Of a stretch of 25,158 nt of DNA, positions 7,136 to 24,762 are shown piece by piece. The stretch lies in IMG/VR virus record IMGVR_UViG_3300042938_000400, positions 1 to 25,158 of that record. One strand, given 5' to 3'. A program made the position numbers and the translations under genes. The notes beneath the pieces were generated by a model. The model saw only the letters and a list, made by a program, of their open reading frames with translations, did no database searches and was not told the DNA's origin. Positions within the stretch are counted from its first letter, which is position 1. Each line of letters begins with the position of its first letter. Source of the stretch: a virus.

Positions 7136-8335
7136 ATGGCCCTCGGAAACGCAGCGTTTACTCAATTATTTGCAACTACTCTACAAAAGTATGAGAAAGT
7201 TTTAGCAGATAACATTTTGTTAACGCACCCTACACTAGAACTCTTTAAACAAGAGTCAAAATCACAAACTGGTCGTGGACTAGTCATACCTCTTCGTGCC
7301 GCTCAACTTGGCGCAACAGCATATGACACCGCATCAGGATCTGGTGGTTATGCCACCTCAGTCTCAGCAGATACAATCGGAGCTGCTGTCTATGACTGGT
7401 CAAATACCGTACTAACACCATTTCGTGTTAAGCACTCAGATATACTACAGAACACTGGCCCAGAGCAAGTTGTTAATCTTGTAGAAGAATATGTCAAAGG
7501 CGCTACAGCAGACCATCAGGATTTCTTAATCGCTGAACTATGGGCTGCATCTTCATCTACAGGAGACATCCTCTCACTACGTGAGTTGATTCGTTCAACT
7601 GATAAAATTTCTACTACTGTTGCAAAAACAGTTGGTGGAATTCGTGGTGGAGATTCAACAAACGCAGTAACAGATTATGAGCGTGCTGGTACAACAGCTA
7701 CACTAACAATTGGAGCAAACGATTTTATCGTTGGTGACTCTGTAGTTGTAACTGGTGTTATCGCTGCTCTTGCTGGTACATTCACACTTACAGCTGTGAC
7801 TGCTACAACAATCAGTTATACAACTGCTACATCTGCAACAGTAGGAACTACTGCAACTACTGGTTCAGTAACATGTTCAGATATCAAAGACTACTGGCGT
7901 TCAACTCAAAAGACAATCGCTAAGTCTTCAAAAGATATTCTTGTAGCATTTCGTGAGATGGTTAACGCTATCTACGTGGCAAGCCGCAAGAGACCTACAC
8001 ACATCATTGCAGGCATTGATGTATATGAAGAGTTCGAAGCTTATCTACAAGATAAGGGTCGTTACGACTTCGCAAATGTAAATAAAGCTGAAACTCGCTT
8101 CCGCGAAATTAGTTTCGATGGAATCGTAGTTCGTATGGATCCAGATGCTCCAGTTGCTGAAGCATACTTTATCCACGCACCAGCACTTCGCTTTGCATAT
8201 CTTGCAGGCGAGTTTATGAAGACCTACCCAGCAGACCGTATTCAAGGTACTCTGGATGAGGTCGTTCCAATTGCTTCAACATTAAGCATTGGTACTTCTG
8301 AGCGTAGAGCTCATGGAAAACTTATCCGTACCTGA
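7136..8335 (+). CDS. Major capsid protein with an inserted beta domain
   Basis: This 399-aa protein directly follows the scaffold and is preceded by a strong ribosome site (AAGGAAGG). The pattern fits an HK97-fold coat: a helical N-arm, a GRGLVIPLRAA strand, a long spine helix around 110-135 (EEYVKGATADHQDFLIAELW) and a C-terminal A-domain with THIIAGIDVYEEFEAYL and a ...GEFMKTYPADR strand. Between about residues 177 and 248 lies a Thr/Val-rich insertion with GDSVVVTG and AGTFTLTAVTATTISYT, which closely resembles a segment in the nozzle-like protein at 9100. Arginine codons are 18 CGT/CGC and 2 AGA out of 20, whereas neighbouring genes mostly use AGA. A clear terminator follows. Both fit very high expression. 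Confidence 0.88.
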   Translation: MALGNAAFTQLFATTLQKYEKVLADNILLTHPTLELFKQESKSQTGRGLVIPLRAAQLGATAYDTASGSGGYATSVSADTIGAAVYDWSNTVLTPFRVKHSDILQNTGPEQVVNLVEEYVKGATADHQDFLIAELWAASSSTGDILSLRELIRSTDKISTTVAKTVGGIRGGDSTNAVTDYERAGTTATLTIGANDFIVGDSVVVTGVIAALAGTFTLTAVTATTISYTTATSATVGTTATTGSVTCSDIKDYWRSTQKTIAKSSKDILVAFREMVNAIYVASRKRPTHIIAGIDVYEEFEAYLQDKGRYDFANVNKAETRFREISFDGIVVRMDPDAPVAEAYFIHAPALRFAYLAGEFMKTYPADRIQGTLDEVVPIASTLSIGTSERRAHGKLIRT

Positions 8336-8355
8336 TATTGGATAACCAAGGTGAG

Positions 8356-8390
8356 CCCACTGCCGTAACTGGTAGTGGGTTTTACCTTTT
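8356..8390 (+). terminator. Intrinsic terminator after the major capsid gene
   Basis: Arms CCCACTGCC (8356-8364) and GGTAGTGGG (8371-8379) form a 9-base stem with one G-U pair and a GTAACT loop, followed by TTTT, ACC, TTTT. It starts 21 bases after the capsid stop. It is the best terminator in the window. It would limit read-through into the tail genes and so lift capsid mRNA relative to them. Confidence 0.85.
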
Positions 8391-8428
8391 AACCCCACGA
8401 CTTAGCAAATGATAGAGAGGTATACTAA

Positions 8429-9100
8429 ATGAATTTAACAACACTGAGAGATTACGTACGAGACTTAACTGGCATATATTCAACTGATTTATTAGCAAAT
8501 GCTTTATTAGATAGATGGTTACAGGAATCTTATACAGAAGTAAATAGAGAAGAAGACTGGCCTTGGATGACCAATATAATTACAGGAACTCTAGCAATAG
8601 GAGCTACTACAATTACATTAACTAACCCTTCAGGAAAAATTAAAGAATTTTCAGTAACATATCCAAATTCTCTACTTATACAGATACCCTCAAGAAGAGG
8701 ATTAATACAAACAGTTGAGGGTGACGATGAATATTTTTATGACTGTGACTCTTCTAACAATATAGTTTTATCAAAAGCATTTGGCGAGACAATGACTTAT
8801 AAAATAAGTTATATTAAGGCTGCCCCACTTATAGACACAGTTGGTGCAAACGCAACAGAACTCCCATCAGAGTATGTAAATATTATTGCATATCGTACTG
8901 CAGTAAAAGTATTATTCTCACAGTCAGATGATACTAACAGACCACAGTTTTATTCTACAGAATATGCTAGATTACTAGATTACATGAAATCAGATTTAGT
9001 TGTTGATCATGACCTTGGACCTATACAAATAGGTGGAGAAATTCTAAGAGTTGACGGGAGAACGGCAGGAACAGTTAATTTAAGATATAGGAGTTCTTAA
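8429..9100 (+). CDS. Head-tail connector / tail adaptor protein (gp4- or gp11-like position)
   Basis: This 223-aa protein directly follows the capsid gene and overlaps the next start by one base (TAATG). Its opening (LRDYVRDLTG..., LLDRWLQESYTEVNREEDWPWM, about 5-47) is the helical pattern of phage adaptor proteins that dock under the portal: a helix with an R/D..L..SY..V...EDWPW signature. A beta-rich middle (TGTLAIGATTITLTNPSG) and a second helical segment with PSEYVNIIAYRTAVKVLF follow. In podoviruses this slot holds the protein that extends the portal and carries the nozzle. The start has GAGAGG about 9 bases upstream. The assignment rests on the N-terminal pattern plus gene order. I cannot say which adaptor family it belongs to. 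Confidence 0.68.
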   Translation: MNLTTLRDYVRDLTGIYSTDLLANALLDRWLQESYTEVNREEDWPWMTNIITGTLAIGATTITLTNPSGKIKEFSVTYPNSLLIQIPSRRGLIQTVEGDDEYFYDCDSSNNIVLSKAFGETMTYKISYIKAAPLIDTVGANATELPSEYVNIIAYRTAVKVLFSQSDDTNRPQFYSTEYARLLDYMKSDLVVDHDLGPIQIGGEILRVDGRTAGTVNLRYRSS

Positions 9101-11301
9101 TGGAAGTATTAACTATAAATGATTTTAGTGGTGGAATAAATGAACAATTTGCCATAGACAACTTTTCAAATAAACAATGGTCTAGATTAAAAGGTTTTGT
9201 TATGGACTCAGATCAAACAATAAGAACTCAATGGGCTGCTCAAAGTATTGGTTCATCAGGTGCAATTACAGGTGGAGTTAAATCAATTAGTGGTTTCACA
9301 GGTTCCTCTAACTCTTATTTAGTTGCTATATCTAACACAGGTGCAATATATACTGCAGTAGCACCATCAGATACAGCAAACTATACTACAGCAAATAGCG
9401 TATCATGGACTCTTCAATCATCTATTACAGTAAATACAGATTATAGATTTATATGTGAGATACCAATTCTTATAGAAGATAGTACAACTAATTTCGTAGG
9501 TGAAGTAAATGCTTTATTAATAAATACAACTTCTGGTACAACAGTACCATTTGTTATATATGAAAATGATTTAACTAATTCTATAGGTATTAGAACTTGG
9601 AGTAGATATCAACCAGTAGATCAACCCAATTTAATTAAACCTTTACCTGGTGAAACTTTAAATTTAAATGATGCTAAAACTTTTACCGCTACAACTTCAT
9701 TTAGTATAGTAACAACATTTACAGGAGCAGGTACTGTATGGACTTTAGCAAATGATGGTAAATTTCCAGTAGATGTAAGAATAAATACTGGTGCAACTAT
9801 AACTACAGTACAACCTTTAGATTCATATACACATACCGCTGCATTAACAGTTGGAGAGCAGTTACAAGTTCAAGCTACTGGAGGTAGTAGTTTAATAAGA
9901 GTGGGTATATTCTTAGGTTCATATGCATTACCAATGAGAAATTTAATACCTAAAGCAAATGTAGGATGTATATGGAAAAATAGACTAGTATTGGGAGATA
10001 TATTAACTAGAAGAAATTCAACATCAACTTGGGTTAATACAAAGAGTATATCAAATGTAGCCAGAACCTCTAATACAGTTACTATAACAACATCTGCCGC
10101 ACATAACTTTTCAACAGGAGATACTGCTGTAGTTACTGCTGTAACTAATACTACATTAAATGGAACATTTACAATTACAGTAACAGGTTTAACAACATTT
10201 ACTTATACTAAAGCAGGTACTGATATTACCAGTGTAGCAGATACTGGAACTGTAGTAGTTAATAATATACAAAGAAATCCAAATCAATTCTATTACTCTG
10301 AAGAAGTAGCAGATAGTTATCATGAGCAATCAATACTATTAGCAGGTTCAGCAGAATCTCAAATATTAGGTATGCATGTATTAGATAACACTCTAGTAAC
10401 TATATCATCACCAAATACTGAATCAGATGGTATAAGAATATTTAATGGTAATCCAACATTTATAGATCTTCAAGAAGGTAATAATGTTTTAGACATAAAT
10501 GTAACTAGAGGTGGATTAGGTCCAGTTAGAGATACATCTGCAACTGGTACTAGAATACCTTCATGTGTCTGGCCTGATTCTGGCATAGTAGTATTCCTAG
10601 ATAAGTTAGGTGGATTATGGTATACAGATGGGCAACAGGTAGATCGATTAGATAGAATCGGTCCAGTGACTCCAGATAGAACAACTGTAAGTGATGAACT
10701 ATCTTCTATTAGTAAATATTTATTTATGGTAAGAAATAGTAAATACTATGTATTAAATTTAATGGAAGGTGTTAGAGGTGATTCAGCTCTTGCAGCATGG
10801 ACTGAATTAGTATTTCCTGCATATACAGTTGCACCTAAGAGTTTTAAAAAAGTTTCAGGTAGTATGTATTTTGTTATGGATAATAGAGTTTATAGATTCT
10901 GTGTATCTAGAGATAATGCAGCAGATACAGAAAGAGCAACTTTTGATAATACACAATTAGAGTGTACTATAGGAACTGCAACAATAGGAAATAATGAACA
11001 ACATAAAAAAGTAAGTTGGTTTAGATATGGTATGAGAACTAGAGGTAGATCTAATAATGCTCAAGTTAGAACAGTAACAATTAAAGCAGGTCCTAATTTA
11101 GATACTTCAGTATTTACATATTCAAAAGCTATAAATAGAAATTTAGTTGATAGAGATGAATTTGTAATACCAGCAGGTATTGGTTCGTCTGTAGAAATAT
11201 CTGCAGAGACTACATTTAAAGGAGATCTACAAATTGAATCATGTAGTTTCTGGTCTGTAGGATTAAAGCCAAGTAGACCTGGAGATGGTAGCGATGCGTA
11301 A
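9100..11301 (+). CDS. Tail nozzle / DNA-stabilisation-like structural protein with inserted beta domain
   Basis: This 733-aa beta-rich protein begins with MEVLTINDFSGGINEQFAID. This DFSGG[IL]N opening is common in podovirus nozzle or packaged-DNA-stabilising proteins that cap the connector. The C-terminal half (about 395-600) alternates short beta strands with SGIVVFLDKLGGLWYTDG and SMYFVMDNRVYRF, suggesting a propeller-like fold. Residues 317-388 hold a separable domain (GDTAVVTA, NGTFTITVTGLTTFTYT, TGTVVV) matching the insertion in the capsid protein. The length compares with about 790 residues for T7 gp12 and about 470 for P22 gp10. It is translationally coupled to the adaptor gene. Arginine codons are mostly AGA, unlike the capsid gene. 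The exact family is uncertain. Confidence 0.65.
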   Translation: MEVLTINDFSGGINEQFAIDNFSNKQWSRLKGFVMDSDQTIRTQWAAQSIGSSGAITGGVKSISGFTGSSNSYLVAISNTGAIYTAVAPSDTANYTTANSVSWTLQSSITVNTDYRFICEIPILIEDSTTNFVGEVNALLINTTSGTTVPFVIYENDLTNSIGIRTWSRYQPVDQPNLIKPLPGETLNLNDAKTFTATTSFSIVTTFTGAGTVWTLANDGKFPVDVRINTGATITTVQPLDSYTHTAALTVGEQLQVQATGGSSLIRVGIFLGSYALPMRNLIPKANVGCIWKNRLVLGDILTRRNSTSTWVNTKSISNVARTSNTVTITTSAAHNFSTGDTAVVTAVTNTTLNGTFTITVTGLTTFTYTKAGTDITSVADTGTVVVNNIQRNPNQFYYSEEVADSYHEQSILLAGSAESQILGMHVLDNTLVTISSPNTESDGIRIFNGNPTFIDLQEGNNVLDINVTRGGLGPVRDTSATGTRIPSCVWPDSGIVVFLDKLGGLWYTDGQQVDRLDRIGPVTPDRTTVSDELSSISKYLFMVRNSKYYVLNLMEGVRGDSALAAWTELVFPAYTVAPKSFKKVSGSMYFVMDNRVYRFCVSRDNAADTERATFDNTQLECTIGTATIGNNEQHKKVSWFRYGMRTRGRSNNAQVRTVTIKAGPNLDTSVFTYSKAINRNLVDRDEFVIPAGIGSSVEISAETTFKGDLQIESCSFWSVGLKPSRPGDGSDA

Positions 11302-12802
11302 TGATCAAATCAGAATAGGATATGGACCCACAAGATATAAAGGTCCTAAAGGATTAAAAAGAGAATTAGATAATCTACCTGAAGTTACTCAGAATGTTTC
11401 TGATAATTTTAATGAATTAGTTACAGTATCTACTTATGATCCTTTATCAAGAGAAGGTACAGGAACTTCTTTTGATGGTGAGTTTATTAATTATACTAAT
11501 ACCTCAACCTCATCTTTATCTCCAGATGATGTAATAATTGTTACATTAATAGATGGTGAATATTATGCTATAGGTATCTCAGAGAGAGCTGGGTATATAA
11601 CACCTGTAGAACTACCTGCTGCAGCCGCACTGAGTGCAAGTTTTCCAATAGTAACAAATCCAGATTTAACATTTGATATATCTGCAATGAATACAAATAT
11701 TAATACCTTAGTAACTGGTTATTCATTATGTCATGATATGGCTGGTGGTTATGGTATTGGTACTGATTCAATTATTGGTAGATTAAGTCTTTCAACTATA
11801 AATGCATTTACTAGAAGTAGCAGTGTTAACTCATCATTATTCTCTGCAGTTGGTTCTTATAATGATATGTATTTACAACAAGGTAATGGTACAATAATGG
11901 AAGCTGGAACTACTGGTACTTATTCATATCGTAGACCAGCAGATACTTCATATACTACTTTTACAGCAACTAATGGAAATGACTATAACGCATTTGATCA
12001 ACTAACTGAAAATATGTGGACTTGGTCTTGGACTAATGCTGGTGTTGGACCTAGCAATTTCTGGAGAATGTCAGATACAGATTCATCACCTGTAGATAAA
12101 GGTAACTTAGGAATGCCTAATAGTACATTAACAAAGTATAGAGTATTAATTGCAGGTCATGGTTATTTAGCAGCATTTTTTATTGATACAGCAACACCAG
12201 GAGTTTCTAATATGTACATGAAACCTGCTAATGATGATACAAATTTTACTTTAGTTGCTACATATAATAATACTGCATTTGATGCAGCAGATGATACAAG
12301 CACATGGTTAAGTGGTACAGACTTACCTCGTTATAGAGATATGAGAATCACACCTAATGGAGATGTAACTTATATTTATAAGAGCACACTTACAACAACA
12401 TGGCATATAAAATTATTACAAAAAAATACAAGTGTTGTTTATGATTACGATACAAATATTCCTAGTACATATACAGCATTAACATTTACTAGAGATGCTT
12501 TACAAGGTCATATGCATACATCTAGTGGTTTAGTAATATTACAAGGTATAGTAGATGATGTAACACTAGGAGCAGCTACCCCTGGATTTTATCCAGCGAC
12601 TGCTGCCTATAATTATATAAGTTCTACTTATATTTATTATGATCCAGATCTACCAGATAACTTATCCGCTGTTGGAGATATAAAAACAGATATACCTATA
12701 GAAATAGATCCAGGAGTAATAAGATTTATGTACTATTCTAATACAGATCAGAATGGTGCAATACCAGCGCAAGATAGAGTTTACGAGTTAACAGGGTTAT
12801 AA
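11294..12802 (+). CDS. Beta-rich structural protein of unknown role (tail-associated)
   Basis: I do not recognise this 502-aa protein. ATG 11294 is preferred because GGAG lies 9 bases before it; an in-frame ATG at 11285 sits almost on that site and is less likely. It overlaps the preceding gene by 8 bases. The N-terminal 35 residues are charged (IRIGYGPTRYKGPKGLKREL). The rest is rich in Thr, Ser, Asn, Asp and Tyr with alternating strand patterns (PDDVIIVTLIDGEYYAIGIS; DMRITPNGDVTYIYKSTLT), typical of phage fibre, spike or repeat-propeller proteins. There is no coiled coil, collagen-like repeat or chaperone motif. Its place after the nozzle-like gene suggests a virion protein attached to the tail, possibly a host-contact part. 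Confidence 0.5.
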   Translation: MRNDQIRIGYGPTRYKGPKGLKRELDNLPEVTQNVSDNFNELVTVSTYDPLSREGTGTSFDGEFINYTNTSTSSLSPDDVIIVTLIDGEYYAIGISERAGYITPVELPAAAALSASFPIVTNPDLTFDISAMNTNINTLVTGYSLCHDMAGGYGIGTDSIIGRLSLSTINAFTRSSSVNSSLFSAVGSYNDMYLQQGNGTIMEAGTTGTYSYRRPADTSYTTFTATNGNDYNAFDQLTENMWTWSWTNAGVGPSNFWRMSDTDSSPVDKGNLGMPNSTLTKYRVLIAGHGYLAAFFIDTATPGVSNMYMKPANDDTNFTLVATYNNTAFDAADDTSTWLSGTDLPRYRDMRITPNGDVTYIYKSTLTTTWHIKLLQKNTSVVYDYDTNIPSTYTALTFTRDALQGHMHTSSGLVILQGIVDDVTLGAATPGFYPATAAYNYISSTYIYYDPDLPDNLSAVGDIKTDIPIEIDPGVIRFMYYSNTDQNGAIPAQDRVYELTGL

Positions 12803-12835
12803 AGACCCCATAACTTAGTAATAACAGGAGACATT

Positions 12836-12859
12836 ATGAATGAGGTGAGCAGTGGCTAG
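12836..12859 (+). other. Seven-codon leader ORF overlapping the next gene's start
   Basis: ATG 12836 follows AGGAG with a 5-base gap and encodes MNEVSSG, stopping at TAG 12857-12859, inside the first codons of the next gene (GTG 12852). Ribosomes ending here could restart at the GTG. It has the same length, the same 16-base lead and the same 8-base overlap as the one at 14348. Confidence 0.35.
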
Positions 12860-14345
12860 TTTTCAAGACAGAGCAAAACAATTTGGGTATGAGTTTACGG
12901 GTGCTTCCGATGTAATGGCTGGTTCCAGAAAACTTGGTAAAGCAACTACATTTACAGAAGGTCTAAAAGGAGTAGGTCAACTAGGATATGGTCTTGTTGG
13001 TTTAGTTCCAGGTGCAGGATTTCTTACTAAGGTACCTAAATTAGCAAAATTAGCAAAATTAACAAAAGAATCACCTATAAATAAATCTGTACTTGAAACT
13101 GTACCTAAGTTTTTTGGTGCAAAAAAAGGATTTACAACAGAAGTTACAAGAAAAATTCCATATGCAGCAAAGCCAAGACAATTTGTTAGAACTAGCACAT
13201 ATAGTTTAACAACACCAAGAGGTATTGCTGCAAGTTCAATAGCTACAGATGCAGTACAAAATCAAGTTAGTATGGGATTAAATTATCAAGATCCAAATAA
13301 AAATCTAGGAACTATACAAGATAAAGTAACAAAACAAATTAATGCTATACAACCTACTTATAATCCAAGCGGAAGAAAAGGTGGTCCTTATTCCACTGAA
13401 AATTTATTTAAAGGTTCATTTTCAACCTCAGGTTTTCCTGGTTTAAATGTAAATCAAAAACCTAATTTGACTATTGTTAAACCAAATGATGGTACTTTAA
13501 AACCTAGACCAAAACAACCACCAGCTGCAGTAGTTCCAAAACCAGTAGCTCCAAAAGCACCAGTACCACCTGCTAGACGTAAACCAGAAGATATATATTC
13601 ATTCCCTCCAAAAACTCCTCCTAGAGTTGTTCAACCTCCTGTAACTACTAGGCCCGCACAACCATCAACACAACCATCAACACAAACAGTTACTACTCCA
13701 CCTGATACTACTCGCCCTCGTGTGTATCCAGATAATTATTCTGGTACTACAACTTGGATGGATTTAAACAAAGATCGAATTGCCGCTGAAGCAGCAAAAG
13801 CTACTGAAGATATTAAAAGACAAAATGATTATAATACTTATCTAGATGAAGTTAAAAGAAATGCTACTTTAGCAGAACAACAAAGGTTTACTCAAGAACA
13901 AAATGATATTGTACAACGAGGAGCATTACAACAACAAAGAACTCAGTTAGAAAACAAGGAATATGGAATTCCTCCATATTTGGAAGCAGCAAGTAAAAGG
14001 TATCAAGGAGGTCTTGCTAGATCACAGGCACTAGGTGCTATAAGAGAACAAGATATAAGAGATGCATTATCTCAAAGACAGATGTCTGCTAGAGGAAGAT
14101 CTGCAGGTACAGTGGGTGGATTAGCACCAGCATTACTAGGATCTGGTTTAACAGGTGCTGGTAGATCATACAAGCTAGATACAAGAAATGAAGTTTTGAG
14201 AAGAGCGGAAGAGCAAGCCGCCCTAAAAGAATCATATGATGTATACTTAGCAGAAGCGGCAAGAGAAGCTCAATTAGAACAACTTGAAGATGCAAAGACA
14301 AGATCTTTACTAATTGATCAAATTAGAAGCCTCGGGAGTAACTAA
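12852..14345 (+). CDS. Internal virion protein candidate 1 (proline-rich, helical)
   Basis: This 497-aa protein starts at GTG 12852, with GAGGT 5 bases before it; the nearest upstream ATG (12836) is in another frame and stops at once. Residues 34-58 are a Gly/Leu/Val-rich hydrophobic segment (GVGQLGYGLVGLVPGAGFL), followed by a basic amphipathic stretch (KLAKLAKLTK). Residues about 205-295 are Pro/Thr-rich and probably extended. The C-terminal 200 residues are Gln/Arg/Glu-rich helices, with a short Gly/Leu patch (about 423-440, PALLGSGLTGAG) that resembles one in the next protein. As the first of three long genes before the lysis genes, it fits the podovirus set of proteins ejected into the cell with the DNA. 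This is inference from composition and order, not a recognised family. Confidence 0.5.
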   Translation: MASFQDRAKQFGYEFTGASDVMAGSRKLGKATTFTEGLKGVGQLGYGLVGLVPGAGFLTKVPKLAKLAKLTKESPINKSVLETVPKFFGAKKGFTTEVTRKIPYAAKPRQFVRTSTYSLTTPRGIAASSIATDAVQNQVSMGLNYQDPNKNLGTIQDKVTKQINAIQPTYNPSGRKGGPYSTENLFKGSFSTSGFPGLNVNQKPNLTIVKPNDGTLKPRPKQPPAAVVPKPVAPKAPVPPARRKPEDIYSFPPKTPPRVVQPPVTTRPAQPSTQPSTQTVTTPPDTTRPRVYPDNYSGTTTWMDLNKDRIAAEAAKATEDIKRQNDYNTYLDEVKRNATLAEQQRFTQEQNDIVQRGALQQQRTQLENKEYGIPPYLEAASKRYQGGLARSQALGAIREQDIRDALSQRQMSARGRSAGTVGGLAPALLGSGLTGAGRSYKLDTRNEVLRRAEEQAALKESYDVYLAEAAREAQLEQLEDAKTRSLLIDQIRSLGSN

Positions 14346-14371: not shown

Positions 14372-16706
14372 TAAAAAAGTACGTAATGATATGGAATATC
14401 AATTAAGCAAAAACAAAAAAATTATAGCTGCCGAAAAGAAGGCTGCTGAAAAATTAAATATAAAAAGATTTAAAGAAACAGAGAGTTTAAAAGAAGGTGT
14501 AAAAAAGAATGAAATAAAACTAGGTACTAAATATCAACAGTATGCAAATAAAGCCGCTAAACAAGAAGAATTAAAATATAATAAAGCTATGGCTGCTCAA
14601 AAGGCTGCTGGTACTATTGGTGAAGAATATTTTACAAGACCATCAATTAATCCTGAAGATTATTTTGAAAAACCTGATAATATAAAACCAATTCAAGATT
14701 CTCCATCTACCTCTAAACCTGCGTGGCTGAAGGATGAAATAGAAACACCTAAATCTACTTCTTCTTTTTTAGATAAATCAAAATCTATTGGTAAAAAAGT
14801 AGGAACTAAGATAATTGGTAAAACACCTGTAGGTAAAGGATTAAGAATACTTGCTGCACTTGGTGCAACTGGTGCCTATTATGGAGCAAAACCAGATAAA
14901 ACTGAAGATGTACCTGCTTCAATTACACAAACTCCACAATTACCAATAACTCAAACTCCAAGAAATATAGATATTAATTCATTATTTCCTGCACCTACAT
15001 TAGAAACTTTTAAACCTAGGGAATTTTCTCCAGTAGATTATATACCTTCATCTGTTGGTGCTGCACCTAGACCTTCAACATTGCCCACTCCTAAAAGATC
15101 TACAGGTCCAAGTAATGTAGAATTAACTCAAGGTTTATTAAGTCAATTACCAGATAATACACAGAGAAATATAGATACAATAAATAAAGCTTATCAAGAC
15201 CGTATTGCTAATCGCAAACCTATAGAGGATATTGATATATCTGCTAACGCAGAAATTCAAAAATTAAATACAACTCTTCAATCACAATTAGATAATTTAG
15301 TAAAGGCTTATGGTAGTAAAAGAGAAGTTCAGAAAGCAGTTCAACAAGAAGATCCTATACTACTTCAAGAACTTGCTTCTATAGATGCACAATATAATTT
15401 ATCATTAAATGATATACAAAGTAGTTATACTAATGCACTGGCTGACGCTCAAAGAACACAACAATTAACAGATGAGTTACTTAGTAAAACAACACAACAA
15501 ATGACAGGTGGCTTTGAACAGATAGCAGGTGGTTTACAAGGTGGTGGTGGTGCTGACGTAAGTACAGCAGCATTACTAAGAGGTCTATCTGGAGCTTCAG
15601 CAACAGGTGCTGGTGCTAGACAATTTGAAACAGGTGTTGATTTACTTGGTAATATTGTAGGTGGAAGACTTGCTCAAGCAAGATCAGAATCTGATTTAGC
15701 GCTATCTAGAGCATCTTCAAGATCTCAAGCACAGAGAGGTTCAGCAGTTAGACAGGCAGATTTAAGAGAAAGAATACGTCAAGAAGAACTTGATGCTGAG
15801 AAAGAATTCTTAGCAAATCAACAGGGACTTGCTGGTACTTTATATGAAAATACTTTAAATGAAAGAAATAGAGCTGAGACTAAATTAGTAAATGCTGCTG
15901 AAAGAAAACAAAGCCTTGAGTTAGCAAGACAAGCTGAAGATGAGCAATTACAATTTGATCTTCAAAATGCAATACTACAAGCACAGCAACAGGGTGATGA
16001 GAACTTAGAGCAGAGAACTATTCAATTATATAATGCTACTTTAGCAGATAGAGAAGCTGAAAGAGACTTTGAGAATCAAATCCTTAATAGAGATTTGCAA
16101 CAGGCTGAACAAGATTATCAATACTCTACAAACTTATTTAATCAACAAGCTCAAGAAAACCTTGCTCAAAGAGAGTTCGCTATGGGTCAACAGGCTGCTG
16201 CAAATAAATTTGCTGAAGGTGAAGTATCTAGAGAAGAAGCATTAAGACTTGCTAACACTCAAGCAATGAATGAATATAATCAAAATAGAATATCAGTCGC
16301 TAAACAGTTATTACCTGAATCTCAATATAATGAATATATTAGAGGATTAACTGGTCAAGCTCAACCTGCAGCTCCATTTACTGCTAAACAAGTAACAGGT
16401 GATATTAAAGTTTCTACAAAATCAGATGGTAAAACAACTAGTAAAATAATACCTCAAGATGATGCACAAGGTATTTTAGATGCAGTAGATAATTTTATAT
16501 TACAAGCACAAGAAGCAGATAATTATAATGAAGCAGCAGCATATTTTGATACTGTTTTTAACTCTCCAGAGGGTAAGGGTGGTCTAAAAGATATTGCAAT
16601 AGGATATAATGTTTCATTACCACAACTTCGTGCATTGCTTGTACAAGCAGGACTCCCAACAACAGCAAGTGGATTTGCAGCTACATATTTTAAAAGAGGA
16701 GAATAA
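14364..16706 (+). CDS. Internal virion protein candidate 2 (long coiled coil, gp15-sized)
   Basis: This 780-aa protein starts at ATG 14364 with AAAGGG 8 bases before it. The N-terminal 90 residues are very Lys-rich and helical. Residues 158-174 form a short hydrophobic segment (GLRILAALGATGAYYGA). A Pro-rich linker (about 185-250) and helices follow. A Gly-rich patch at about 378-420 (GGFEQIAGGLQGGGG, then ALLRGLSGASATGAG) comes next, then about 200 residues rich in Gln, Glu, Arg and Ala (430-640) that look like a long coiled coil. The C-terminal 110 residues are more globular. The size is near T7 gp15 (747 aa), and it sits just before a gp16-sized gene. I infer a virion protein stored in the head and ejected to help DNA cross the envelope. 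No enzymatic motif is visible. Confidence 0.52.
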   Translation: MANKKVRNDMEYQLSKNKKIIAAEKKAAEKLNIKRFKETESLKEGVKKNEIKLGTKYQQYANKAAKQEELKYNKAMAAQKAAGTIGEEYFTRPSINPEDYFEKPDNIKPIQDSPSTSKPAWLKDEIETPKSTSSFLDKSKSIGKKVGTKIIGKTPVGKGLRILAALGATGAYYGAKPDKTEDVPASITQTPQLPITQTPRNIDINSLFPAPTLETFKPREFSPVDYIPSSVGAAPRPSTLPTPKRSTGPSNVELTQGLLSQLPDNTQRNIDTINKAYQDRIANRKPIEDIDISANAEIQKLNTTLQSQLDNLVKAYGSKREVQKAVQQEDPILLQELASIDAQYNLSLNDIQSSYTNALADAQRTQQLTDELLSKTTQQMTGGFEQIAGGLQGGGGADVSTAALLRGLSGASATGAGARQFETGVDLLGNIVGGRLAQARSESDLALSRASSRSQAQRGSAVRQADLRERIRQEELDAEKEFLANQQGLAGTLYENTLNERNRAETKLVNAAERKQSLELARQAEDEQLQFDLQNAILQAQQQGDENLEQRTIQLYNATLADREAERDFENQILNRDLQQAEQDYQYSTNLFNQQAQENLAQREFAMGQQAAANKFAEGEVSREEALRLANTQAMNEYNQNRISVAKQLLPESQYNEYIRGLTGQAQPAAPFTAKQVTGDIKVSTKSDGKTTSKIIPQDDAQGILDAVDNFILQAQEADNYNEAAAYFDTVFNSPEGKGGLKDIAIGYNVSLPQLRALLVQAGLPTTASGFAATYFKRGE

Positions 16707-23620: not shown

Positions 23621-24181
23621 ATGAGTATCATAGGTAAGATAGGTAGAGAAATAGGTGAAGAGGTTGCAGAAGGCCTAGCAAAGAAGGCTGCTCCTGTAGT
23701 TAAGAAAGCTGCTAAAAATGTTGATGATAATTTAGAAGATTGGGTATTTAAGAAAAAACCTAATGAGATGTCTGGTAATGAATACTTAAAAAAAATAAAT
23801 TATGCTGGTCATGGATTTGGAGAAGGTGCTTCATTAAATAGAAATAATTCTAAAGCATTAAAAAATAAATGGGCAAAACAATTAGAAAATCATGATATTC
23901 TATCCGAGTCCCCACATAACAGTGCACTTTTATTTGCTAAACTAGAAGATGCTAATATACCTAGAAAATATACAGGTAAATTAGCAAAAGCGTTATTAAA
24001 AGATGAAAATTATAGAACTGTTAGTAATACTGAAAGTTACAAAAAAAGGATACAAGATATATCTAATGGCTTAAAAGGTATGAATGAAAGTCAAAGAGAA
24101 ACACTTATATCTCTACTACCAGAGTGGGATTTTAGTACCAGTAGTGCTGACGATCTAGTGAGGGCGGCTAAGTTATTATGA
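23621..24181 (+). CDS. Unknown basic protein, paralogue 1 of a tandem pair
   Basis: I do not recognise this 186-aa protein, but it is clearly homologous to its right-hand neighbour. The first 25 residues (MSIIGKIGREIGEEVAEGLA, then KKAAP) are an amphipathic, Lys-rich helix with 23 of 25 positions shared with the neighbour. The middle (about 40-110) differs. The C-terminal third shares IPR..TGK, a following helix, and SQRET..SL..EW..T.DDLVRAAKLL. It starts directly after the stop of the hydrolase-like gene, with AGGTGAG upstream, and overlaps the next start by ATGA. Basic N-terminus and acidic C-terminus suggest a virion-packaged or nucleic-acid- or membrane-contacting protein. No enzymatic residues are evident. 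Confidence 0.55.
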   Translation: MSIIGKIGREIGEEVAEGLAKKAAPVVKKAAKNVDDNLEDWVFKKKPNEMSGNEYLKKINYAGHGFGEGASLNRNNSKALKNKWAKQLENHDILSESPHNSALLFAKLEDANIPRKYTGKLAKALLKDENYRTVSNTESYKKRIQDISNGLKGMNESQRETLISLLPEWDFSTSSADDLVRAAKLL

Positions 24182-24252
24182 GTATCATAGGAAAAATAGG
24201 TAGAGAAATAGGTCAGGAAGTGGCTGAGGGCTTAGTTAAGAAGGCTGCTCCT
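23621..24252 (+). repeat. Duplicated 5' gene segment (23621-23695 and 24178-24252)
   Basis: The first 25 codons of the two paralogous genes are similar at the DNA level, with the changes mostly silent or conservative. The first 14 bases are identical and a second identical block, ataggtagagaaataggt, follows. This is the trace of a tandem gene duplication. Confidence 0.7.
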
Positions 24253-24762
24253 AAAGTTATGCCTGCTGTTAAGAAACCTTTAGAGTGGGGATTCAAGGGT
24301 AGAAAACCTACTGATATTGAAGACTTTAATTATCGTCAAGATTGGGACCCAGGTAATTTACCAATATTAAGTCAAAAGGAATACTACTCAATTATAGATA
24401 CAAATATGAATAAACTTAAAAGAGGTGCTAAGAAAAATAAATATATTTCTGATATTATTAATGATAAAAAAAATTTTTATACAGATGCTGAAAATTTAGC
24501 AGATGTTAATAGAGAGTTTAAATATTTAGAAAATTTTGATGTACCAAGAGAATTAACTGGTAAAATGCTTGGTAATAATCTAGGTATAAATTATTTTAAT
24601 AAAGAGAAAGTAGGATTTTTGCAAGATATAAGAGATTGGAAAAGAGGTTGGTTACGATATCATAATGAGTTAACTAAATCTCAGAAAGAAACCTTTGATA
24701 GTTTATCTGATGAGTGGAATGGTACAATAGATGAATTAGTAGATGCGGCTAAGTTATTATGA
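24178..24762 (+). CDS. Unknown basic protein, paralogue 2 of a tandem pair
   Basis: This 194-aa protein overlaps its paralogue by ATGA. The N-terminal helix is almost the same (MSIIGKIGREIGQEVAEGLV, then KKAAPKVMPAVKKP). The middle is unrelated to paralogue 1 (PTDIEDFNYRQDWDPGNLPI, then a Lys/Asn-rich helix). The C-terminal part again shows VPR..TGK and SQKET..SL.DEW..TIDELVDAAKLL. The final 18 bases before and including the stop (24745-24762) are identical to those ending paralogue 1 (24164-24181). The pattern of conserved ends with a divergent middle suggests selection on a delivery or docking helix and on a C-terminal module. Function unknown; toxin, ejected protein or assembly factor are all open. 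Confidence 0.55.
   Translation: MSIIGKIGREIGQEVAEGLVKKAAPKVMPAVKKPLEWGFKGRKPTDIEDFNYRQDWDPGNLPILSQKEYYSIIDTNMNKLKRGAKKNKYISDIINDKKNFYTDAENLADVNREFKYLENFDVPRELTGKMLGNNLGINYFNKEKVGFLQDIRDWKRGWLRYHNELTKSQKETFDSLSDEWNGTIDELVDAAKLL

Follow-up and report, generated by a model that had tools for sequence, protein, structure and literature searches.

A recurring domain of about 70 residues in phage virion proteins appears to be exchanged at one site of the major capsid protein

Introduction

Major capsid proteins are usually regarded as the core of a phage, conserved and passed on vertically. Small beta domains are added to phage head and tail proteins; the immunoglobulin (Ig)-like domains among them (Hoc, T5 pb10, the C-terminus of lambda gpV, Big_1/Big_2) are exposed on the particle and have been proposed to bind surfaces or carbohydrates (PMC5292684, PMC8718954). 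Those on the tail tubes of lambda and T5 and in T5 pb10 protrude or are exposed to solvent (PMC8718954, PMC5292684). In phage SU10, the nozzle propeller contains four inserted Ig-like nozzle domains (PMC9509320). The shuffling of protein domains between phages is already known, and a survey of domain mosaicism found contemporary shuffling mainly in receptor-binding proteins, endolysins and DNA polymerases (PMC10684548). In this study, a virus record of IMG/VR from an uncultured phage (IMGVR_UViG_3300042938_000400, 25,158 bases, analysed at its full length and called the window hereafter) was examined for a module of about 70 residues that is carried by both its major capsid protein and its nozzle-like tail protein.

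The module resembles the Ig-like domains as a small, predicted beta domain added to head and tail proteins, but it is shorter, has a motif of its own (T.T...H..G....V.G....NGT....TTF.Y......G) and, when 12 and then 30 copies were compared with Pfam, matched no family of the Ig-like kind. Moreover, it is internal to the major capsid protein, where it is exchanged as types at one site. The likeness to SU10 is that beta domains are inserted in the nozzle of a short-tailed phage and that the portal and adaptor of the window match SU10 families; the difference is that SU10 has four Ig-like domains at one place, whereas here one module is inserted at sites that vary among the nozzle relatives. The mosaicism survey describes the same kind of recent fragment shuffling between phages (PMC10684548), but here a major capsid protein shows it. 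According to the literature searched, the exchange of types at one site inside a major capsid protein is new, and so is the recurrence of one unnamed module across head, connector, tail and baseplate.

Results and Discussion

Homology of the capsid and nozzle copies

Capsid residues 177–248 (window 7664..7879, in the 399-residue major capsid gene at 7136..8335) and nozzle-like residues 317–388 (10048..10263, in the 733-residue gene at 9100..11301) were compared; these features, the tract 7652..7901 and the genes at 8429..9100 and 11285..12802 lie on the plus strand. The two segments were 41% identical over 56 columns in BLASTP (E = 8e-7), and the alignment of the whole capsid protein with the whole nozzle-like protein fell on the same two segments (E = 3e-7). 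Their Smith–Waterman score was 104, whereas 6000 shuffles averaged 54 and did not exceed 100, and the best scores among 621 real Thr-rich phage protein segments were 66 for the capsid copy and 89 for the nozzle copy. The segment scoring 89 was itself a further module copy, in the comparison loci L137/L138, which was overlooked by the first profile and recognised by a broader one. Only one-sided controls were used, because homologous duplicates among the Thr-rich segments made pairing them at random unsuitable as a control. A hidden Markov model (HMM) built from copies in other proteins only matched the capsid at residues 178–246 (E = 6.3e-14) and the nozzle-like protein at residues 317–387 (E = 5.7e-25), with no match in any other of the 13 window proteins tested. 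An HMM match to the module also spanned capsid residues 178–247 and nozzle-like residues 316–387. Because shuffled and Thr-rich segments scored lower and the independent profile matched both, the two segments are considered homologous, diverged copies of one domain of about 70 residues and not a compositional likeness. An earlier note on this DNA, made from the letters alone, had proposed the same inserted domain in both proteins; its coordinates proved exact, and the proposal withstood both the alignment-score check and the profile search, which matched the two copies and many further carriers in related phages.

Exchange of module types at the capsid site

Four module types (A–D) occupy one site on the capsid backbones, between a stretch ending in VGGIRGG and a stretch starting with IKDYWRST; the window copy is of type A. 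With the module removed, the capsids of the window and L002 were 95% identical, whereas their modules were only 59% identical, and L005, L008 and L022 carried three module types on backbones that were 95% identical. L008 and L026 had a backbone identity of 63% and a module identity of 87%. The grouping of type B (L002, L022) or type C (L008, L026) as a backbone clade was rejected by the approximately unbiased (AU) test (p = 9e-6 and 6e-8, respectively). The capsid site is thus regarded as an exchangeable cassette, because four types sit on backbones with a conflicting tree. Furthermore, L005 and L004 had a 72-base exact run in common inside the module, with flanks that were 60–65% identical.

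The window and L001 were 98.7% identical over 12.7 kb. All 18 differences between their capsid genes fell in 7652..7901 (15 of them in 7653..7762), and the other approximately 950 bases of the gene had none; 17 of the 18 lay within 234 bases at the module (binomial p = 1e-11). Silent and replacement changes were mixed, mainly in the first half of the module, and 7652..7901 is taken as a recent replacement tract. The module at the capsid site is therefore judged from these comparisons to have been replaced by recombination, repeatedly and once very recently, with the surrounding capsid unchanged. The earlier note had held that the exchange was not very recent, a view that has to be given up in light of this cluster and of the conflict between types and backbone tree.

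Selection and codon use

Type A modules were 86–100% identical in protein sequence across backbones that were only 42–61% identical; in L137 and L005, the modules were 100% identical in amino acids and the backbones 46%. Between the window and L027, the module was 92% identical in amino acids, and the identity at four-fold degenerate sites was 27% in the module versus 30% in the backbone. The type A protein is conserved despite diverged silent sites, and therefore the module sequence itself is under selection. In the pairs window–L145 and window–L005, the module exceeded the backbone in silent-site identity (p = 0.0019 and 0.0016, respectively), and the same was found for window–L137, as exchange predicts. 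Both selection and exchange thus act on the capsid module.

The codon use of each copy had been said in the earlier note to follow its own gene. This was correct for the nozzle copy, whose G+C content at third codon positions (GC3) was 0.07 in the module versus 0.10 in the rest, but not for the capsid copy, where GC3 was 0.11 in the module versus 0.28 elsewhere in the gene (Fisher p = 0.0024). Four-fold Thr/Val/Ala/Gly codons in the window capsid ended in G or C in 1 of 49 cases in the module versus 21 of 112 in the rest (p = 0.0027). In all 22 capsids, the module had a lower GC3 than the remainder of its gene, although the contrast at four-fold sites only was weaker or absent in some of them. 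The tail-like codon pattern in a richer capsid gene fits import; it may also come from local constraint.

Insertion sites

The nozzle module sits between a stretch ending in STWVNTK and NNIQRNPNQFYYSE, and it was carried there by the window, L001 and L002. The nozzle relatives L006, L004 and L009 (63–68% identity) were cleanly without it and had the continuous sequence TTLAWTAA-NNIQRSPYAFFYSE. Other nozzle relatives had a copy elsewhere, near residue 158 in L026 and near residue 183 in L137/L138. The gene that follows the nozzle gene encodes 505 residues and has no module in the window; its 581-residue equivalent in L002 has, according to the alignment, a third copy inserted after ...PVDKGNL. 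Intragenomic copying was considered for the capsid and third copies of L002, which are alike (TNK.LTSNVATLT), but they have at most 13 exact bases in common and so give no sign of recent conversion.

The module occupied the VGGIRGG/IKDYW site in all 22 close capsid relatives. The capsid relative L028 (45% identity) and a distant family of 325-residue capsids were without it, and the AU test preferred neither gain nor loss in L028 (p = 0.27). In the capsid family of L072 the module was present, and annotated Streptomyces phage capsids aligned with that capsid in two pieces (79% of the query) and were without the insert. Presence and absence at a precise site between close relatives were therefore found for the nozzle, the third gene and the L072 capsid family, whereas in the close capsid family they were seen only via the distant L028. 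Both window copies are clean insertions.

Spread over virion proteins and phages

The IMG/VR search with the nozzle copy gave 180 stretches encoding a relative at the cut-off of the search tool, the best 80 of which were taken. With the module masked, the carrier proteins fell into 21 clusters. Their PHROG names included a second, unrelated capsid family (phrog_1357, L072), a major tail protein (phrog_792), a head-tail adaptor (phrog_783), a baseplate wedge, a virion structural protein (phrog_3287) and phrog_5107, whose label is amidase and which is nozzle-like here. Among isolated phages, the capsid module of L002 matched the major tail protein of Microbacterium phage A3Wally (65% identity, E = 6e-16). 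Module matches also lay in contigs of bacterial genomes and metagenome-assembled genomes (Actinomycetia, Acidobacteriota and others). Several contigs had copies in two or three neighbouring virion genes; in L058, for example, these were the tail protein, the adaptor and one further protein. That the module is swapped among phage virion proteins and occurs in several parts of one particle, as the earlier note had supposed, is borne out by the 21 clusters, by the types that conflict with the capsid backbone tree and by these contigs. A 370-residue protein of L058 was considered as a third capsid family and rejected, as its relative in A3Wally is annotated as hypothetical and lies next to the gene that bears the capsid annotation.

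Tandem arrays were also observed. L116/L117 and L102 had six module copies in tandem inside one nozzle-like protein of about 1000 residues; L114, a relative of these proteins, matched phrog_5107, and the amidase label looks like a mislabel. The minor tail protein of A3Wally (L159, 19774–23721) had approximately seven tandem half-modules (S.VATLTT..HGFSVGD.I.VALP) followed by a full one, a run which suggests that the module may be built of two separable halves.

A module tree of 86 copies, of low resolution, placed the window capsid copy among capsid copies and the nozzle copy among the nozzle-like proteins of other phages. Carrier class needed 35 changes on this tree versus a minimum of 20, and the copies appear to follow their carriers only in part.

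Fold and family membership

The AlphaFold models had low predicted local distance difference test (pLDDT) values, 31.7 for the capsid and 39.8 for the nozzle-like protein, both built from alignments limited to close relatives (11 and 6 sequences, respectively). With the nozzle model as query, Foldseek found nothing at E <= 0.001, and profile searches of the PDB with the module gave chance-level matches only (a tRNA ligase and a VWA protein). A separate, second beta domain at about residues 190–270 of the nozzle-like protein (window 9667–9909) was the best-predicted part of its model (pLDDT 66–86) and showed a weak Foldseek resemblance to double-stranded beta-helix/cupin folds.

E1_FCCH (PF16190) has a six-stranded barrel fold, as in the ubiquitin-activating enzyme. 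Some module copies had a weak profile match to this family at positions 3–52 of 70, with weak E values in 3 of 12 and 7 of 30 copies. However, the scores were 16–21 bits against a gathering cut-off of 29.5 (20.6 bits for the nozzle copy), the capsid copy had no match, and the module has neither cysteine nor an enzyme context. Hence, of the likeness to FCCH that the earlier note had mentioned, a weak resemblance of some copies is left, and all scores given here lie under the Pfam cut-off. A literature search for FCCH together with phage found nothing relevant.

Proposed role of the module and rival explanations

The module is probably an autonomous accessory domain of about 70 residues that sits in loops of virion proteins, is exchanged between phages and likely serves as a low-specificity part for surface binding or decoration. 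It would be a beta-rich domain in permissive loops. We infer an autonomous fold and an outward orientation, since unrelated host proteins accommodate the domain and some relatives do without it. By its anatomy (presumably autonomous, inserted in loops, dispensable in many carriers and present in many copies per particle), it would work most like the Ig-like domains of other phages and like the inserted nozzle domains of SU10; outward display and adhesion would follow the same analogy. Hundreds of copies would be displayed on the head and few on the tail, and exchange between phages would alter the surface properties and leave assembly undisturbed. The strong conservation of type A across distant capsids suggests that one binding surface or partner may be kept. 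Tentatively, the capsid may even have a dedicated exchange site, with selected, near-constant types forming serotype-like classes independent of lineage, and with the modules of head, tail and connector acting as multivalent binders of a shared target.

Several observations weigh against this role. The module is in all 22 close capsids and may not be dispensable there, and the AU test left gain and loss in L028 on a par. The models are poor, which leaves the outward position, the autonomous fold and the equality of the folds putative, and the profile search gave no solved relative of the module. That type A is so highly conserved could just as well reflect contact with an adjacent capsid subunit. 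The strongest rival is a built-in cement: the module would stabilise the particle via the neighbouring subunit, as an inserted capsid domain or domain2 of the YSD1 tail does, and swapping would be tolerated as the contacts are generic. Its constant presence in the close family, the conservation of type A across divergent backbones and the YSD1 tail protein, whose inserted beta domain (domain2) forms a large ring interface (PMC8718954), speak for this rival. We nevertheless consider it rather unlikely, since type A stays constant while the backbone to be contacted diverges to 42–61% identity, four types share one site in backbones that are up to 95% identical, and the module also occurs in unrelated proteins with different neighbours.

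The remaining rivals concern the origin of the pattern. Vertical inheritance, in which the types arise because some lineages are strongly constrained and others change fast, draws on several type A pairs whose module silent sites are no more identical than those of the backbone, such as window–L027; this parity means that much of the type A conservation is purifying selection. As an explanation of the whole pattern it is largely refuted and improbable, given the AU rejections for types B and C, the silent sites of window–L145 and window–L005, and the window–L001 cluster, in which silent changes occur and which does not extend beyond the module region. Chimeric metagenome assemblies, fused at similar modules, are very improbable: the capsid-set loci all come from IMG/VR contigs, and a community may hold the module as a conserved repeat, but the same backbone lies on both sides of a foreign module, and chimerism is unlikely for most pairs because the exact DNA runs are short (9 bases for window–L027, 11 for L002–L022, 15 for L008–L026 and 27 for window–L005). 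Gene-to-gene duplication within this genome could be imagined for two homologous copies that are approximately 2.2 kb apart, yet it has equally little probability, as their amino acid identity is only 41%, their longest exact DNA run is 9 bases and, at the low resolution of the tree, their closest relatives differ. The view of the earlier note that the exchange is not very recent holds only between the two window copies: neither is a recent copy of the other, and each has closer relatives elsewhere. The idea of a mere Thr/Val-rich composition, at 69–75% T, V, A, S and G in both segments, is refuted and has practically no probability left, since none of the 6000 shuffles and none of the real Thr-rich segments reached the score and the independent profile matched both copies and no other window protein tested.

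The accessory, exchangeable domain has several consequences. An outsider of 70 residues in a major capsid protein has been exchanged recently and repeatedly, and very different phages, isolated Microbacterium phages among them, have the same domain in tail, connector and baseplate proteins. This suggests that an accessory part of the particle surface is passed between phages. Having no good family model, the module is mostly unannotated or labelled with the name of a ubiquitin enzyme. The hypothesis of adhesion at the phage surface becomes directly testable, the capsid and nozzle sites are indicated as natural display sites, and caution is needed for capsid trees that include such inserts.

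Gene order and further observations

The late genes of the window are ordered as terminase, portal (SU10_portal), capsid, adaptor (SU10_adaptor) and nozzle-like protein. The capsid gene lies downstream of the portal and a probable scaffold gene and its product matches phrog_9953, a major head protein (E = 3.2e-17); by this family match and its position in the head cluster, it is most likely an HK97-fold major capsid protein. The deep capsid relative L137 weakly resembles SU10_MCP, and the distant module-free capsid family resembles the major capsid protein of PDB 6j3q (E = 0.005). The adaptor gene (8429..9100; PF24175, E = 1.6e-7, exceeding the cut-off) puts capsid and nozzle into an SU10-like order. 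The nozzle-like protein is named by its position directly after the adaptor. An SU10/T7-type nozzle protein has a beta-propeller and a platform and lies next to the adaptor; the putative nozzle here has that position, and its model is mostly strand at low confidence. Its backbone had no Pfam or PHROG match, and no solved structure relative turned up. Phage records searched with the whole capsid, the whole nozzle and the nozzle module gave no match.

The gene for the 505-residue protein (11285..12802) probably encodes a virion protein, judged by its position. Local divergence between the window and L001 rose to 12–16% versus about 1% at 12751–12977, at the end of this gene and the start of a gene for 497 residues, and at 14701–14928, within a gene for 780 residues. 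The adjacent genes at 23621–24181 and 24178–24762 have a near-identical start peptide (MSIIGKIGREIG.EVAEGL.KKAAP), and they are likely the result of a partial duplication.

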